Positions 7,111 through 17,482 of a stretch of DNA of 20,541 nt are shown here, piece after piece (within the stretch, counting starts at the first letter, position 1; every line of letters starts with the position of its first letter). Location of the stretch: positions 1-20,541 of the IMG/VR virus record IMGVR_UViG_3300042542_002239; one strand, written 5' to 3'. Source of the stretch: a virus. The notes beneath the pieces are model-generated. The model was not told the origin of the DNA. It ran no database searches and worked only from the letters and a program-made list of their open reading frames with translations. Both the position numbers and the translations under genes were made by a program.

Positions 7111-7422
7111 CTATTGTATATTTTGCTCATCTTGGCACTTATCACAATCACCCAAGCAACAGGCACAAGCACTCTCATAATCGTGGTCACAGCACTTAGG
7201 GTCAAACAAGGTTATATCTTCTTCACTTGCGCAATATGAGCCGTCCCAAGTGCCTAAGTCAATTTTAAAATCAACACCTAAGCCTTCTTTAACCGCCTCT
7301 AGTTTTAACTCTAGGCGGGCAATTTCAAGCGCTACGCCTTCCCAACTAGCGCCACCATTTTCAAACTCTTGTTTAATCTCTTGCGCCTTAGATTTTAAGG
7401 TTTCATTAGTAAAGTAACTCAT
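7111..7422 (-). CDS. Cysteine-rich hypothetical protein, first gene of the leftward operon
   Basis: A 103-residue protein. I start it at ATG 7422 (MSYFTNETLKSKAQEIKQEF) because AAGGAG lies nine bases upstream; the longer reading to 7506 has an unnatural N-terminus and would cover the operator-like leader. About residues 1-52 are helical, with EIARLELKLEAVKEGLG as a possible short coiled coil. The C-terminal third has eight cysteines (CASEED, then KCCDHDYESACACCLGDCDKC), possibly a metal cluster or zinc site. It is the promoter-proximal gene of the leftward operon, so probably the first made. No family recognised. Confidence 0.6.
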   Translation of the reverse strand: MSYFTNETLKSKAQEIKQEFENGGASWEGVALEIARLELKLEAVKEGLGVDFKIDLGTWDGSYCASEEDITLFDPKCCDHDYESACACCLGDCDKCQDEQNIQ

Positions 7423-7508
7423 TAGATTATTCTCCTTGCGTCTAGTAGTGGGCGGGGTGCTCACTAAGTAAAGAGTAAGGGATACTACCCCATTAAGCAA
7501 GGACAATT

Positions 7509-7822: not shown

Positions 7823-7893
7823 TCCGATATGTCCGTATTATACCAGTATGCTAGTGAGGTGTATCACATTTATAAAGATTTATTAGATAAAAA

Positions 7894-7916
7894 CGGGAAA
7901 TGCGTTATATTTCCCG
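7894..7916. other. 8-bp hairpin
   Basis: CGGGAAAT (7894-7901) pairs perfectly with ATTTCCCG (7909-7916) around a 7-base loop. No U tract follows on the plus strand; on the minus strand the AAAA before it becomes UUUU, so it could end a leftward transcript coming from the terminase side. Confidence 0.5.
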
Positions 7917-7930
7917 CCTTATATATAGTA

Positions 7931-8023
7931 GGGGAGTAAAACGATCCCTTATTAGTTTTACGACCCATCATCGCCTCAGCGATGCTTCGGCGAGACCCCT
8001 AAGGGCGAGCCGAGTTTTACCCC
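7931..8023. ncRNA. Candidate structured RNA or DNA element, nested stems
   Basis: Three nested helices can be read by eye. GGGGAGTAAAAC (7931-7942) pairs with GTTTTACCCC (8014-8023) with one bulged A and one base unpaired at the end. Inside it CCCTTA (7946-7951) pairs with TAAGGG (8000-8005). Inside that CATCGC (7969-7974) pairs with GCGATG (7979-7984) over a 4-base loop. A competing partner for GTAAAAC exists at 7955-7961 (GTTTTAC), so two folds are possible. Strand and transcription are unknown; it could be an RNA leader, a small RNA, or a DNA site for packaging or replication. Confidence 0.4.
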
Positions 8024-8024
8024 T

Positions 8025-8077
8025 CACTGCGCTTGGAGCTTGTTCGGGAGCGAAGCGCCAGCGAAGTGAACCGAACA
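8025..8077. other. Interleaved stems, pseudoknot-like topology
   Basis: GCGCTT (8029-8034) pairs with AAGCGC (8053-8058), and TGTTCGG (8041-8047) pairs with CCGAACA (8071-8077). The arms alternate in the order of an H-type pseudoknot. An alternative imperfect stem pairs 8025-8036 with 8058-8068. AGCGAAG occurs twice (8050 and 8060). Directly follows the nested fold. Could be real RNA structure or palindromic DNA-binding sites. Confidence 0.35.
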
Positions 8078-8166
8078 CACACACACTACGCGGCAGGTGT
8101 AAACTATTAAACACCCAGTAACCTATTATCCGCCTAGTAATGAATCAAAGATTTTAATTACGGCGT

Positions 8167-8188
8167 TTATCCACAGGTTTTATACACA
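8167..8188 (+). promoter_or_regulatory. Pair of DnaA-box-like sites
   Basis: TTATCCACA at 8167-8175 is identical to the classic DnaA box, and TTATACACA at 8180-8188 differs at one base. They are direct repeats 13 bases apart, ending where the terminase ribosome site (AAGGAG, 8188-8193) begins. With the AT-rich patches and short repeats upstream they could belong to a replication origin that uses host DnaA; two 9-mers alone are modest evidence. Confidence 0.45.
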
Positions 8189-8197
8189 AGGAGATTA

Positions 8198-10060
8198 ATG
8201 GCTGAGAACTCAGCAGATATCGCGAAGCGAATTATTCTCGGTTGTGTAGCTGAGAATATGACTGTGGAGCAAGCCTGTGCTTCAGCCGGTAAATCATTAA
8301 AGACCTATGAGTACTACCGCAGATCAGATCGTGTCTTCGCCGATAAGATGGATAGAACTAGACTAGGTCTAAGGGATAAGAACTTTGCACTGGGAGATAT
8401 CTCAGAGATTACCTTTGCACAATTTAGAGACCGCTTCCTAAAGAATAAGACATTCCCCCATCAACAAAATTTAGTAGATATGATTGAGGTTGGTAAACCT
8501 TCGTGGTTACACCCCTCTATGAAGTATGAACCAGGACTTGCTAATAACCGCATACTTCTAAATATTCCGCCCAACCACGCCAAGTCAATGACTATCACTA
8601 TTGACTACGTAACCTGGCAGGTCTGTAAGAATCCAAACTTTAGAGTTCTAATAGTTTCCCAAACTCAAAGGCTTGCCGCAGATTTCTTATACGCTATAAA
8701 GCAAAGATTAACCCATCCCTCATATGAGGAGCTGCAATCAGCTTACGCTGCCGGTGTGGGCTTCAGATCAAAGAGTGCTTCTTGGCAAGCGACCAGAGTT
8801 ACCTTCGGGGATGAGTTGCGTGAATCATCTGAAAAGGATCCCAATATAGAAGCAGTTGGTATTGGCGGTCAGATCTACGGTAAGAGAGCCGATATGATCA
8901 TAGTAGATGATGCTGTGACTCTATCTAATGCTAATGACTTTGAACGACAGATCAAGTGGTTAACCCAAGATGTCCGGTCTCGTCTTAACCCTAGTGGTAA
9001 ATTAATTATTATTGGTACCCGCGTTGCAGCAGTTGATCTATATAAAGAACTACGCAACAACGATAGATATCCTGGCGGCCTAGTACCTTGGTCATACCTT
9101 GCAATGCCAGCCCTATTAGAATCTAGTGAGAAGCCTGAAGAGTGGGTCACCTTATGGCCAGCTTCAGATCAAGCATTTGATGGTCAAGAAGAAACAGAGA
9201 AGGATCCAGAAACAGGATTATATCCTAGATGGAATGGGCGTAACCTATATAACGAACGTCAATCTATGGATGCTTCAACTTGGGCGCTTATCTATCAGCA
9301 ACAAGATATATCAGATGATGCGGCCTTTGACCCTGTCTGTGTTCGTGGTTCTATAGATGGTATGCGTAAGTCAGGCAGGTTAACCGCAGGTCATCCAGGA
9401 CATCCAAGAGATTTAAATGGCTTTACCTATATCTGCGGATTAGATCCTGCGATGGTAGGAGATACCGCAGCTATCTGTTATGCAATAGATAGAGCTACTA
9501 GTAAACGCTATATTGTAGATGCTATTAAGATAACTAGACCTAGCCCTGCTGCTATTAGAAATCTAATATTTGATTGGACATCCTTGTATGGTCCTAGTGA
9601 GTGGATAGTAGAGAAAAACGCATTTCAATCTTTCTTAACACAAGATGAAGGTATCAAGATGCACTTAGCATCTAAAGGTGTACAGTTTAAAGAGCACCAT
9701 ACCGGCAGTAATAAATGGGATGCAGGTTTCGGTGTTGCATCTATGGCTAGCCTATTTGGTACTAAACAATTTGATGGCAAGCACCATAGGGATAATCTAA
9801 TACACCTTCCTTCAGATCAAACTGAAAACATTAAGGCTCTAATAGAGCAGTTAATTACTTGGTCTCCTACGACTAAGGGTAAGACAGATATGGTAATGGC
9901 TCTTTGGTTCTGTGAGATCAGAGCAAGAGAGATGCTCAACTATGGTAAGTACCAGACACACCATCTTAAAAATCCATTCCTATCAAAGTATGAACAAAAC
10001 AAAAGAGTAGTCGTCAATCTAGATGAACTCTTTGCTGAGAAGGAACGCACATTTATTTAA
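8198..10060 (+). CDS. terL: Terminase large subunit with N-terminal HTH-like extension
   Basis: A 620-residue packaging motor protein. The ATPase domain has a Walker A-like PPNHAKSM at 124-131, Walker B MIIVDD at 233-238 and the coupling motif GTR at 273-275. The RNase H-like nuclease has acidic residues in CGLDPA (Asp416), WIVEKN (Glu472) and KTDMVMALW (Asp564). It pumps DNA into the prohead through the portal and cuts it. About residues 5-58 precede the usual start of TerL and look like a helix-turn-helix (EQACASAGKSLKTYEYYRRS), of the type found in small terminase subunits. No separate small-subunit gene is seen nearby. ATG 8198 has AAGGAG upstream. Portal follows ten bases later. Confidence 0.92.
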   Translation: MAENSADIAKRIILGCVAENMTVEQACASAGKSLKTYEYYRRSDRVFADKMDRTRLGLRDKNFALGDISEITFAQFRDRFLKNKTFPHQQNLVDMIEVGKPSWLHPSMKYEPGLANNRILLNIPPNHAKSMTITIDYVTWQVCKNPNFRVLIVSQTQRLAADFLYAIKQRLTHPSYEELQSAYAAGVGFRSKSASWQATRVTFGDELRESSEKDPNIEAVGIGGQIYGKRADMIIVDDAVTLSNANDFERQIKWLTQDVRSRLNPSGKLIIIGTRVAAVDLYKELRNNDRYPGGLVPWSYLAMPALLESSEKPEEWVTLWPASDQAFDGQEETEKDPETGLYPRWNGRNLYNERQSMDASTWALIYQQQDISDDAAFDPVCVRGSIDGMRKSGRLTAGHPGHPRDLNGFTYICGLDPAMVGDTAAICYAIDRATSKRYIVDAIKITRPSPAAIRNLIFDWTSLYGPSEWIVEKNAFQSFLTQDEGIKMHLASKGVQFKEHHTGSNKWDAGFGVASMASLFGTKQFDGKHHRDNLIHLPSDQTENIKALIEQLITWSPTTKGKTDMVMALWFCEIRAREMLNYGKYQTHHLKNPFLSKYEQNKRVVVNLDELFAEKERTFI

Positions 10061-12206: not shown

Positions 12207-12611
12207 ATGTCAATGATGAATCCACTAGCTGGTCCATCAGGTCCAGGTCCGTATTCTACAAGAACAGATAAATTATCTTTAGGTTCAACATCATATGGTG
12301 ATGATACTGCTGAACTTAATACAGCAGCACCTAAATCAAAGACTCGTGGTGTAGCAGATGATGTAGGTGGAAGACCTGCTAGTCCAGCAACACAAACTCC
12401 TATAACTCCACTATTTGCTCCATCACAAAGACCAGATGAAGCCGCTAATGCTGGCACTGATATTGGTGATGGACCTGGATCATCAGCATTAATGATGCAA
12501 TCACAGTTTGCTAATCGCAAATTATCAGATGTTTTAGCAGAGATGATTCCTTACGACACTACCGGTGAGATCCAATATCTTTATCAGAACGCTTTATCTA
12601 GAGGTAATTAA
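12207..12611 (+). CDS. Pro/Gly-rich virion-module protein
   Basis: A 134-residue protein from ATG 12207 with AAAGGAGG nearby. Residues 1-95 are rich in Pro, Gly, Ser, Thr and Ala without hydrophobic blocks and are probably disordered. About residues 100-134 (NRKLSDVLAEMIPYDTTGEI, then QYLYQNALSRGN) look folded and helical. The TAA overlaps the ATG of the 1623-residue gene (TAATG), so the two are made together. A linker or cofactor for the giant protein is a reasonable guess from position only. Confidence 0.6.
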   Translation: MSMMNPLAGPSGPGPYSTRTDKLSLGSTSYGDDTAELNTAAPKSKTRGVADDVGGRPASPATQTPITPLFAPSQRPDEAANAGTDIGDGPGSSALMMQSQFANRKLSDVLAEMIPYDTTGEIQYLYQNALSRGN

Positions 12612-15600
12612 TGTCTGAGAGCTTAAAAGCAGCAGCATATGCGGCAGGGTTATCAGAACAAGATAAAAGAACAATAGATAACCTTGGTAAAGCATTAACT
12701 GTGCATCAAAATTTACTTGCTATGCCAGCAGAAACTGCTAACGCAGTATATAATTCTTTACCACAAGCACAACAACAAAACCTTGTACAAAATTTTGGTA
12801 ATGAAACTGAAGAAGAAAAACCAAAACAGGGTTGGCTTGGTACTGCTAATCACTATACTGGATATCAAGCATTTAAAGCATTAAATTTTCTAGCCGATAG
12901 AGTTAGTCAAACTTATCGTGCAGTAGCTATCCCATTGGTAGAGCGTAATCAGATTGGCTTTGCTTGGGATGAAGCAGGTAAAGATGGCGAGAAAGTATAT
13001 AACACAGGTCGTATTGAAGCAGCCACTAAAAAATATACTGAAGCACAGATTAAGATTGCACAAAAGATTAGTGAAGGCGTTGATGTAGCAGATTTAATAA
13101 ATACTGCAACTGAACAAGAAAAATACTATCTTCGTATAGCAGATCCTACCAATAAGGAATCAACTAGAGAAGAAAGAGAAGAATTTGACGAAGCATTAAA
13201 TGCTGTTAATGCTGCTAAGTTTTCACCTGGTCGTCAACTTGCAAATATTATTGATGTATTAACACCTGGTGATCTTTATAAACAAGGTTTTTTCTACAAA
13301 GCAGTTTCAGGTGTAACTGATGCAATATTTCGTCTACGCACCGATCCATTTATTGTAGCGAGTAAAGCAAAAAAACTTTATGATTTAAATAATTATTCAG
13401 TGCAGGTAGTAGCTGCACAAGCTGGCGGTAAAGGCGTAAGGTTTGATAAATACTTTGATCAACCATCAACTATAGCTTTATGGGATAAAGCTGGTGTGCC
13501 TCTTAAAAAATTAATAGAGAATAAAAGTGTAAATCCTCAAGCAGCAGCAGAGGCAAGGAAAGAACTTGCTGTTCTTTTGCCAGAGTTTGGTCGTTCTGTA
13601 ATAGATGAATTTATCAAAGGACCAACCCCAATTACAAGCGCTAGTACTGCTAAGGCTTGGTTTGAAAATACTAGAGATGTTCTAAAAGTTGTAGCAGACG
13701 GATCAATAGCTCGTCAAAGAGTTATTCTTCCTCGTATGACTGTTGCTCGTAAATTACGAGTTAATGCTCTTACTGGAGTAAATAAAGTATTTGACATCAA
13801 TAAGGTGTCGCCTAGTTTAGTAAATGCAGTATTTGGTTCTCCTGATAACGCAGATGGCATACTTGACGACCTTGTTAAATTAGAACCAGGTAAATTAAAA
13901 GAAGCATTAGATGGTGTTCGGGTAAAAGGTTCTGCTCGGTTTTCTATGCTTCAGATAGCAACTGGTTTAGATAAAATTAAAAGATCACTAACTCCAGTAC
14001 CAATGTTTAAAAACGAGGAATTTGATCTTCTTGCAAAAGATGCTCCTGATCAAATATACCGACTTGCAGCAATATTTGCGCCTACAAATTTTGCAACAGT
14101 AATGAAAGAACTATATGCTGGTACAGATTCTGTTGCTAAAAAAATGAGTATTTATCAAGGTTTGTTAAAGCAAACTAATAATGCAAGAGGTTTAGATTTA
14201 ACAGACACTGGAAATACTGTATCTAGAATGTACGCCAAGAAAGGTGATGTTCGGCACGGTTTAGGTGATGGTGAATTATCTAGAAAAGCATTATTACCTA
14301 GTGAAATGAATACAACAGTTTCCGCACCAAGCCTTGCAGATTTAGATATTTTAGCAGGTAAAAGCACTATTGCTAAATTTGTACTAGGTACAGCCAATAG
14401 TAAATGGGTAGAAGGTATAACTAATGGTTGGTCATTCTTAACCCTAGCTGGTCCTCGTTATGCAATTCGTAATGCCGGAGAAGATTTAATGGTTGCCTTG
14501 GCTATGGGTACAAGTCCTTGGGGACTTGCAAAGCAAAGATATACTGCTACTAGATTAAACACAGCCTTGCAATCAGTTAAAGGATTAGACAAATTAGAAG
14601 CCTTTGCTGCTAATCCACTTGGCGTAATGATGAGATTTATTAATAGAAAAGAAGCAGAAGTAAACGCTGCTAGAATAAAAGCAATTGACTTAGATATAAT
14701 TAATAATAGAGAAGAACTATTCCAACTTAAAAAAGAACTTGGAAGTATGAATGTTTTAACCTTTGATGCTAAAAGATCAGGGGAGATCACATCCAAAATT
14801 GCAGCCTTAGAAGATAAAATTCAAGGTGGAGTTGCTGGTCAAACTAGAAAGATACTAGCTGAATCTTTATCTAAGGGTAAGGTAGATACTTTCTTACGCC
14901 AGTTTGGTATTAAAGTAATAGATGATGAATCTATAGAGATACTAACTGAACAGATAATTTACGGTAATATAGATAACCTATTAGCAGAGGTGTCTGAAGG
15001 TGGTATGAACTTCGCTAATGGTGCTACCTATAACGAATCAGTATTGCAGTTAGTTAAAGATTTAGGTGTTGATGTTAGACCACTTAGATTAGATTTAACT
15101 ACTGCTACTAAAAAATATAGAGCATCTGCAAATGTGGCAGGTTTTGGTACTAGGGCCATTACCAGTGATAAGAGTGAAGCATCATTAATTGGATACCTAT
15201 TACGTCTTAGATTTTATGGCAACGATGAATTAGGTTCTCTTGCTTTAGCAAATGCGGATTTACCCGATGAACAATCTATGAAGATTCTTGTTGATTGGTT
15301 AAGAACTTCTAGAGGTAAACAATTAAAGTCTGAAGCAACTGCTGTGAGCGAACTTGATATAGATGATATTAGATATGCTAGAGAAGTTCTTACTAGGGCT
15401 AAGGAATTAGTTACTAAAAGAGGCGATGGCAATATAAATAAGAAACTTTTAGATAAGATCCGCGAGTATGATCCATCTGCTCCTTTAGGTAAAGGTGTAA
15501 ATACTTACACTATCTCTGGTAAATTAGGTTTGGATGATGTTAGAGGTATAGATCTTCAAGATCTACCAGCAGAGTATGTTGGACCAGAGTTAGTACCAGT

Positions 15601-17482
15601 TGTTGAAGAATCACAACGTACTTATAACCTAATGAAGAATGGTTGGGTATGGCTTGGCCTTGCCAATGCTCGTATCTCTCGTCAACCTATGGCACTATAT
15701 GAATCAATCCGTATTCGTAAAGAAATGCGAAGTACTGGGTTTGAACAAAAGTTTATTGATGAATGGACTAAAGGTACTCAAAAAGGAACTCTTAGTTATC
15801 AAGCTGGTATAAAAGCAGCCAAGACGGAGTTAGCTAAAGCAGCAGAAGAAAGAGCAATTATGCAAGTTCTTTCTTATGTAGATAATCCTTTGATTAGATC
15901 TCAAGGTTCATTTGCAATACGTAACTGGGCTAGATTCTATCGCGCTCAAGAAGATTTCTACAGACGTTTAGGTCGTCTTGCTAAGTATAATCCAGAAGCA
16001 TTTGCTAGGGCAGCAGCCACATTTGACGGAATAGATCATAATGGATTTATTCAAAAAGATGAGAATGGTGATGCTTACTTTGTTTATCCTATGATGGCTC
16101 CTGGATACAAGATTATGCAAACTGCATTGGCGGGAATGGGAATACCACAAGACTTTAAAGTTCCGTTTCCAGTACAGTTTGGTGGATCTGTAAAGATGTT
16201 AACACCATCTTTAAACCCAGATTCAATTCTTCCAACATTCTCTGGACCATTAGCAGCGCTTTCTGTATCAACATTAGGCAATATAGCCAGCTTCCTACCT
16301 TTCCAAGGTGCACAGCAAAACGCAGATACCGTGACAGGTATGCTTTTAGGTAAGTATGCAGTAAATCAACCAATTCTTTCTAGGCTAATGCCAGCACACG
16401 TTAATAGAGGATTTGCTCTAATGAGTCAAGATGACAGAGATTCTCAATATGCTTCTGCATATCGTAAGGCAGTCACATACCTAGAAGCATCTGGTAATGG
16501 TCTACCTAAAAAATTAGATGCAAGTGGAAATTTAATAGCACCTTCTATTGCTGAAAGAGAAGCATACAGAGAAAGATTAAAGAACGCTACTTTATCTGTT
16601 CTTGCTCTTAGATTTACATTTGGTTTCTTTGCACCAGCTTCAGTTCAAACTGAACTTAAATCAGAGATGGCTGATTGGATTAAAGATTCTGGTAAATCAA
16701 ATTGGAAAGAAGTTTGGTATAAGTTATACGAAAAGAATAACTTTGATAAAGATGTTGCAATGGCAAAATGGGTAGAACTATATCCTAACCAAGTTCCATA
16801 TACTGTATCTGAATCAGATCGTAAAACTGTAGCTATATTTCAGTCAGCAGAAGATTCTGGTAAATTCGTAGAAGATAACCAAGTATTATTTAATACCTAT
16901 AAAGAAGGTGCTGCCTTCTTAATACCTAATGAAGGCGCTTTTTCTTACGATGCTTATAGAACTATGAAGACTATGGGCCTTAGAGAAAATAAAAGAGTAG
17001 AAGATTATCTAGTACAGGTACAGGCAGCAGCAGATGCTGAGATATATTATGAAAGAAAAAACAAGTTTGATGAATCTTTATCTGTTATCAGCAGTCCTGA
17101 AATAAGGAAGATACTACGCCAACAATATAATACTTGGAAAGATACTTATATGGCAGGTCGCCCAATGCTAGAAGAATATCTAGGTAAGGGTAGAGAAAAA
17201 GCAATAGAGAGAGTTAGAGCGTTAGATGATTTAAGCGCTATGTTAGATGACTCAAAATTTGCAAACATTAGACCTGAAACTCAAGATGTTCTAAGAAAGA
17301 TGGTAGATACTTATAAAGGTTATGTAAAGCAAAAAGAAATGTTTGAACTAACCGGTGGTAATAGAGATACTTTAGATTTAACTAGATCACTATCTTTAAG
17401 AAAAATAAAAGAACTATCTAATTTTAACGAGAATACATTATCGGCATATATGTCAATATTTAGTAGATTGTTAGGAGAGTAA
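12611..17482 (+). CDS. Giant virion-associated protein (candidate internal/ejection protein)
   Basis: A 1623-residue protein, the largest of the window. It is mostly alpha-helical, with charged helices (for example NREELFQLKKELGSM near 700) and moderately hydrophobic blocks (for example WSFLTLAGPRYAIRN and NAGEDLMVALAMG near 605-635; FSGPLAALSVSTLGN near 1215). Around 1095-1180 it reads YVDNPLIRSQGSFAIRNWA, then FYRAQEDFYRRLGRL, then DAYFVYPMM, a block I associate with very large phage structural or polyvalent proteins. It lies between portal and scaffold, where podovirus-type phages keep internal core proteins that are ejected with DNA. No protease, ADP-ribosyltransferase, polymerase or lysozyme motif is evident. 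A tape measure is less likely, given position ahead of the capsid genes. Confidence 0.5.
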   Translation: MSESLKAAAYAAGLSEQDKRTIDNLGKALTVHQNLLAMPAETANAVYNSLPQAQQQNLVQNFGNETEEEKPKQGWLGTANHYTGYQAFKALNFLADRVSQTYRAVAIPLVERNQIGFAWDEAGKDGEKVYNTGRIEAATKKYTEAQIKIAQKISEGVDVADLINTATEQEKYYLRIADPTNKESTREEREEFDEALNAVNAAKFSPGRQLANIIDVLTPGDLYKQGFFYKAVSGVTDAIFRLRTDPFIVASKAKKLYDLNNYSVQVVAAQAGGKGVRFDKYFDQPSTIALWDKAGVPLKKLIENKSVNPQAAAEARKELAVLLPEFGRSVIDEFIKGPTPITSASTAKAWFENTRDVLKVVADGSIARQRVILPRMTVARKLRVNALTGVNKVFDINKVSPSLVNAVFGSPDNADGILDDLVKLEPGKLKEALDGVRVKGSARFSMLQIATGLDKIKRSLTPVPMFKNEEFDLLAKDAPDQIYRLAAIFAPTNFATVMKELYAGTDSVAKKMSIYQGLLKQTNNARGLDLTDTGNTVSRMYAKKGDVRHGLGDGELSRKALLPSEMNTTVSAPSLADLDILAGKSTIAKFVLGTANSKWVEGITNGWSFLTLAGPRYAIRNAGEDLMVALAMGTSPWGLAKQRYTATRLNTALQSVKGLDKLEAFAANPLGVMMRFINRKEAEVNAARIKAIDLDIINNREELFQLKKELGSMNVLTFDAKRSGEITSKIAALEDKIQGGVAGQTRKILAESLSKGKVDTFLRQFGIKVIDDESIEILTEQIIYGNIDNLLAEVSEGGMNFANGATYNESVLQLVKDLGVDVRPLRLDLTTATKKYRASANVAGFGTRAITSDKSEASLIGYLLRLRFYGNDELGSLALANADLPDEQSMKILVDWLRTSRGKQLKSEATAVSELDIDDIRYAREVLTRAKELVTKRGDGNINKKLLDKIREYDPSAPLGKGVNTYTISGKLGLDDVRGIDLQDLPAEYVGPELVPVVEESQRTYNLMKNGWVWLGLANARISRQPMALYESIRIRKEMRSTGFEQKFIDEWTKGTQKGTLSYQAGIKAAKTELAKAAEERAIMQVLSYVDNPLIRSQGSFAIRNWARFYRAQEDFYRRLGRLAKYNPEAFARAAATFDGIDHNGFIQKDENGDAYFVYPMMAPGYKIMQTALAGMGIPQDFKVPFPVQFGGSVKMLTPSLNPDSILPTFSGPLAALSVSTLGNIASFLPFQGAQQNADTVTGMLLGKYAVNQPILSRLMPAHVNRGFALMSQDDRDSQYASAYRKAVTYLEASGNGLPKKLDASGNLIAPSIAEREAYRERLKNATLSVLALRFTFGFFAPASVQTELKSEMADWIKDSGKSNWKEVWYKLYEKNNFDKDVAMAKWVELYPNQVPYTVSESDRKTVAIFQSAEDSGKFVEDNQVLFNTYKEGAAFLIPNEGAFSYDAYRTMKTMGLRENKRVEDYLVQVQAAADAEIYYERKNKFDESLSVISSPEIRKILRQQYNTWKDTYMAGRPMLEEYLGKGREKAIERVRALDDLSAMLDDSKFANIRPETQDVLRKMVDTYKGYVKQKEMFELTGGNRDTLDLTRSLSLRKIKELSNFNENTLSAYMSIFSRLLGE

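Follow-up and report, generated by a model that had tools for sequence, protein, structure and literature searches.

In a 20,541-base IMG/VR phage record (the whole of which is hereafter called the window), a folded element of about 150 bases (7931-8077) lies ahead of the large terminase gene. Homology, synteny and covariation indicate that it is almost certainly a new structured RNA. The reading that we favor, with a probability of roughly 0.4, is that it serves as a folded leader RNA without coding function at the 5′ end of the late operon (packaging and structural genes) and governs read-through. A new structured element ahead of the terminase, assignable to no known family, had been proposed in the initial annotation, and this proposal is borne out. 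The features involved are the following:

7853-7868, strand unassigned: CRP/GlxR-like site AGTGAGGTGTATCACA, matching TGTGA-N6-TCACA at 9 of 10 positions, its centre lying about 70 nt upstream of the inferred start
7894-7916, strand unassigned: palindrome CGGGAAAT-GCGTTAT-ATTTCCCG beside the promoter, also read in relatives; possible operator or −35 substitute
7919-7930, + strand: promoter-like −10 region TTATATATAGTA, with a fixed spacing of about 12 nt from GCC to the first G of the element
7931-7966, + strand: 5′-terminal hairpin P1 (7936-7942/7955-7961, tandem GA at 7934-7935/7962-7963, outer GG/CC), present in the minimum free energy (MFE) fold
7969-7984, + strand: hairpin P2, CATCGC-CTCA-GCGATG (7969-7974/7979-7984), present in the MFE fold, with counterpart stems in relatives
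7986-8014, + strand: helix P4 (7986-7991/8009-8014), enclosing P3 and assessed by comparing own with swapped partners
7996-8005, + strand: hairpin P3, CCC-CTAA-GGG (7996-7998/8003-8005), with compensatory variants in relatives
8018-8048, + strand: conserved core TACCCCTC..GCT..TCGGG with helix PX (8021-8023/8046-8048 and 8026-8027/8042-8043)
8029-8077, + strand: clade-specific 3′ domain (8041-8047/8071-8077 and 8030-8034/8053-8057, in pseudoknot order), weak
8198-10060, + strand: large terminase gene (PHROG 38, E=2e-63), the first gene 3′ of the element

The stretch had been described as free of genes and different in composition from its surroundings. Both descriptions hold, as no tRNA or Rfam gene was detected at 7931-8077 and the GC content is 0.55, compared with 0.33-0.43 in the adjoining sequence. 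On the + strand, the element has an MFE of −56.4 kcal/mol (z −3.3) and its first part, 7931-8023, reaches z −4.3; in each case, none of 200 dinucleotide shuffles was as stable. Taken separately, the second half shows no unusual stability (z −1.2), and among 146 tiles of the window 3 are equally extreme. Because stability by itself is indecisive, the case for a structured RNA rests on covariation.

A terminase search in IMG/VR yielded 80 loci. A homologous stretch was found just before the terminase in all those with enough upstream sequence except L071, whose contig breaks off within a partial copy in inverted orientation (positions 1-54), probably an assembly artefact. The family was extended with a second terminase search and a covariance model, R1, which scored between 16 and 115 bits in 55 of 69 further loci; every match lies on the + strand and precedes the terminase, and some of these contigs were already in the earlier set. 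The first terminase search and a DNA pattern of the core together gave about 180 IMG/VR phage loci with a homologous element among the matches listed, some of which overlap on the same contig, with 138 distinct core sequences. R1 scores 92.7 bits on the window (E 1e-25), a rough E-value for a sequence that belongs to the seed and matches by construction; the non-seed members L135, L095 and L141 score 49-59 bits. R1 gave no matches in ct2KA10-like loci or in Streptomyces loci. The DNA pattern matched at least 120 IMG/VR contigs, a regular-expression count from which divergent members may be missing, and 19 of 20 long records carry a single copy of the element. Among 84,980 genomes of bacteria and archaea, the same single pattern had no match, and a bacterial or prophage origin was discarded on this basis.

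No Rfam 15 family matched the window above its gathering threshold or at a lax threshold, the best sub-threshold match being Termite-leu (16.6 bits versus 51), and no Rfam match was found in eight relatives (L033, L064, L135, L095, L044, L120, L212 and L200). A tRNA or tmRNA identity was rejected, since neither was detected in the element. Comparison with annotated phages at the DNA level gave chance-level matches only, and we found no account of this RNA in the open-licence literature. The element thus represents an RNA family with strong covariation that Rfam does not contain and that very many environmental phage genomes carry. Judging from relatives, it belongs to a large group of freshwater phages whose hosts are probably Nanopelagicales.

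The search for relatives followed by covariation analysis, as suggested in the initial annotation, gave its clearest result in the core helix. PX has the general form CCC(C)-UC-x1x2-[conserved loop]-x2′x1′-UC-GGG, where x2/x2′ correspond to 8027/8042; it is unbroken in L324 (CCCCUGC/GCAGGGG) and carries a long hairpin in L335. On the terminase tree (105 rows), 8027/8042 flips between G-C and C-G 14 times, the two columns and the pair changing 14 times each, and independent contrasts agree in 11 of 11 cases (p=0.001). It was the top pair in a tree-based covariation scan and the only one above all null values; the R-scape-like scan used a plain MAFFT alignment and was noisy. Exchange of alleles by recombination could carry linked pairs along together, yet it poorly explains repeated flips confined to these two columns. 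For the whole fold (20 pairs, 64 sequences), the covariation score is 0.254, compared with 0.141 after shuffling (reached in 0 of 500) and at most 0.113 when the fold is slid.

The remaining helices were examined in the same spirit. P1, which in the window reads GG-GA-GUAAAAC...GUUUUAC-GA-CC from the first G of the element, has arms that beat all swapped partners in 40 relatives (0/2000), with variants such as GCAAAGC/GCUUUGC, GCAAAUC/GAUUUGC, GUAAAGU/ACUUUAC and GCAAAUGC/GCAUUUGC, among others. P3 is a 4-bp hairpin in relatives (GGCC/GGCC, GCCC/GGGC, GUCC/GGAC, AUCC/GGAU) and shows 16 changes on the terminase tree. P4 beats its swapped partners outside class B (0/1000) and receives no support inside it (640/1000). 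In close relatives (class A), the 5′ strand of P4 lies in the P2 loop, forming an H-type pseudoknot; in the window, P2 and P4 are nested. Loop and segment lengths differ among relatives and shift the reading frame, an observation that would speak against a coding leader.

These results modify the architecture previously proposed. Of the three-stem nested fold at 7931-8023, P2 and P4 around P3 are kept in relatives and the outer arm is not: the pairing of GGGGagTAAAAC with GTTTTACCCC (8014-8023) is absent from the MFE fold, and swapped partners do equally well (1022/2000 in 40 relatives). The switch in which GTTTTAC at 7955 and 8014 would compete for that arm falls with it, as the arm is unconserved and the local P1 pairing prevails over every swap. 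Given the swap test of the outer arm, we regard this switch as fortuitous, confined to the window and a few of its close relatives. Regarding the interleaved stems at 8029-8077, the arms do exist (TGTTCGG/CCGAACA and GCGCTT/AAGCGC), but the pseudoknot is weak: one compensated pair (8043/8075) was found among 7 sequences, and 94 of 500 shuffles reached its covariation score.

One feature of the core helix agrees with a different interpretation, namely that the conserved function belongs to the − strand or to the DNA itself. At 8026/8043, A-C mismatches occur in 24 of 143 sequences and G-U never does, a pattern unexpected for a simple pair on the + strand; on the − strand, A-C reads as G-U. Divergent leftward genes and the palindromic DNA sites upstream of the element agree with such a function. 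In contrast, the + strand carries terminators with U-runs, the promoter-like box adjoins its 5′ end, and it folds better, with a family mean z of −1.7 compared with −1.3 on the − strand. A − strand or DNA function is therefore highly improbable, and the predicted promoter next to the element, together with the terminators on the + strand, favors an RNA over a DNA element.

In most relatives, the 3′ domain is replaced by the hairpin CGGGC-GCUAA-GCCCG (P5), often followed by a terminator. Stems followed by UUUUAG are found near +127 to +175 in 30 of 66 and in 35 of 60 leaders of relatives, with the variants GCGGAGC/GCUCCGC, GUGGUGC/GCACCAC, GCGGUGC/GCACCGC, GAGGUGC/GCACCUC and GUCGUGC/GCACGAC; the covariation of their arms identifies them as intrinsic terminators. 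No terminator is recognizable before the terminase in the clade of the window, and a universal terminator was rejected because only about half of the phages have one.

Mutually exclusive pairings other than that of GTTTTAC, and absent from the initial annotation, are conserved in relatives. The GGG of the core can pair upstream with CCCC (PX) or downstream with CCCG (P5). Of the distinct sequences, 36 have the run lengths C4/G3/C3 and 3 have C5/G4/C4; this joint change is consistent with both pairings of GGG and may perhaps be a single event. An explicit choice between terminator and antiterminator is found in one clade (L293-L295), where the terminator GCGGAGC/GCUCCGC (−11.6 kcal/mol) cannot form together with GCGCUC/GAGCGC (−19.4 to −19.5 kcal/mol); the window does not have this choice.

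Another view would be that the structure stabilizes the 5′ end of the late mRNA or tunes its translation, leaving termination unaffected. A hairpin that begins at the inferred +1 would suit this role, as would the absence of a terminator in the clade of the window. Nevertheless, the structure exceeds what a stabilizer needs, many relatives have terminators, and several phages have an extra ORF or a tRNA-Arg gene inserted between the element and the terminase; we consider this view improbable. Given the same insertions, a direct switch acting solely on the translation of the terminase is disfavored. The tRNA-Arg (ACG) genes detected near the element are located at 537-612 in L060, 477-550 in L074 and 9168-9241 in L106, those of L060 and L074 being between element and terminase.

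The genomic setting is constant. In all loci of sufficient length, the element precedes a homologous large terminase gene on the same strand, and wherever the flanks can be read this terminase comes next, either directly or after one small gene. Upstream, relatives mostly have leftward genes; in the window, small leftward genes precede the element (the nearest at 7111-7443, − strand), and the rightward operon starts at the terminase. Within the structural operon, a 1623-aa protein (12611-17482) has no Pfam or PHROG match.

This strict linkage would also be expected of a packaging element, either a pRNA-like motor RNA or a DNA pac/cos site beside the terminase. Such a role finds additional backing in the repeats and palindromes between element and terminase and in the fact that no small-terminase gene was recognized in the window; perhaps the DNA-recognition part is fused into the large terminase. 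However, no Rfam match was obtained with a library that includes the phi29 pRNA family, long related records (around 40 kb) end at varied places and not at the element, the records of the Streptomyces relatives have their ends about 400 bp upstream of the promoter, and the many terminators point to a role in transcription. We therefore hold a packaging function to be a poor candidate. The sequences in this interval include at least two short CC-N-AGTA-like repeats, such as GCCTAGTAA, at 8110-8145 and in relatives, a palindrome GATAGnnCTATC in relatives, and two DnaA-box-like motifs, TTATCCACA (8167-8175) and TTATACACA (8180-8188), just before the terminase and also present in close relatives. 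The N-terminus of the terminase (8198-8380), read by eye, is helix-turn-helix-like.

The promoter-like stretch (palindrome, TATATATAGTA box and GGGG) adjoins the 5′ end of the element. The palindrome and TTATATATAGTA, or a variant of it, follow one spacing pattern in 130 of 130 loci, and the −10-like motif is unique in the window and absent from 100 shuffles. On sequence grounds, the element is very likely transcribed from the predicted promoter that abuts it. A CRP/GlxR-like site scoring at least 8/10 is present in 125 of 125 loci (around 3-5% of control stretches) and one scoring at least 9 in 113 (0.1-0.3% of controls), with two preferred distances in relatives, centred about 53 or 69 nt upstream; this suggests a phage promoter under host CRP-family control. 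A sigma-like protein (Sigma70_r4) encoded at 1139-1774 is found in 11 of 11 long related records, and it may read the late promoter. The motif TATAGGGAG raised the idea of a T7-like RNA polymerase promoter; PF00940 had no match in 11 records, a search in which the control was also silent.

The existence of a promoter, a 5′-terminal hairpin and, in about half of the phages, a terminator of its own is also what an independent small RNA of about 150 nt would show. Such an RNA would act in trans on host RNA polymerase, a host mRNA or a defence system, and would merely sit before the terminase; a core conserved beyond the needs of a simple attenuator fits this possibility. It is the main rival, unlikely though less so than those above. 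Against it, the element is never found away from the terminase in about 180 loci among the matches listed, and roughly half of the leaders have no terminator. The fixed late-operon position, the abutting promoter, the frequent terminators and the many leaders without one, including that of the window, favor a leader acting in cis over a free small RNA, and a cis-acting leader of the late operon is the probable interpretation. That it controls read-through into the operon is more tentative, with odds a little short of even.

The following mechanism can be envisaged for such a leader. Transcription would start at the GGGG run, around 7931, from the promoter made of palindrome and box, and the first 130-180 nt would fold into the 5′-terminal hairpin, the P2/P3/P4 domain and the conserved core helix. 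An intrinsic terminator, present in about half of the phages and perhaps ancestral, lies directly after the fold and before the terminase, so that late genes would be read only once RNA polymerase passes it. Read-through might be set by alternative pairing (CCCC:GGG versus GGGC:GCCC, and antiterminator versus terminator in one clade), by binding of the leader to RNA polymerase or a phage factor, or by both. In the clade of the window, which lacks a terminator, read-through control would need another target.

Known systems offer partial parallels. In phage lambda, the Q-controlled late promoter PR′ produces a short leader, 6S RNA, that ends at the intrinsic terminator tR′, followed by the late genes. 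A similar order of promoter, leader, intrinsic terminator and late genes is predicted in the relatives with terminators; the element differs in its conserved covarying fold, in the lack of a terminator in the clade of the window, and in that no Q-type antitermination protein was detected with PF06530, which covers one Q family, in 11 long records (the control matched in E. coli). The pRNA of phi29 is a structured phage RNA tied to packaging, and the element is likewise structured and linked to packaging functions, but it has no Rfam match, belongs to another type of phage, and shows terminators and a late-leader position. The put RNA of HK022 (PMC9378689) is, like the element, a structured nascent RNA of a phage operon that could alter read-through by RNA polymerase; put, however, serves early genes, whereas the element precedes late genes, their sequence relation being judged by Rfam only. 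By itself, put RNA counteracts both pausing and termination. By analogy, the element may work like the lambda late leader or put; it is apparently unrelated to them in sequence and is assigned to neither. GOLLD and other large ornate RNAs share with it a lake metagenome origin and a conserved complex structure (PMC12286853), but the element has about 150 nt, no Rfam match and a fixed place before the terminase.

A similar layout is seen in the Streptomyces Beephvirinae (RosePharie, Immanuel3), which have CRP-like sites, a palindrome, a TATATATAATGGGG promoter, a structured leader with hairpins and the terminase as first gene; their leader RNA differs in sequence, and R1 matches nothing there. 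A bolder and doubtful proposal is that the element represents a new class of phage RNA that would license the entire late operon, either by acting on host RNA polymerase during elongation or by way of a sigma-like partner from the phage, being widespread in freshwater phages of probable Nanopelagicales hosts and keeping its architecture as far as Streptomyces phages. The leader model suggests how phages related to viruses of some of the commonest bacteria in fresh water may turn on their virion genes. The similar layout in cultured Streptomyces phages and the isolation of Planktophila phages E7 and F5 (PMC10202952; OX376640, OX376641) make the idea amenable to bench testing. The terminase of E7/F5 is 46% identical, and these phages fall in a sister group (L201-L280) with a different structured AT-rich stretch upstream of the terminase, containing CGCTTCG..CTACGC modules.
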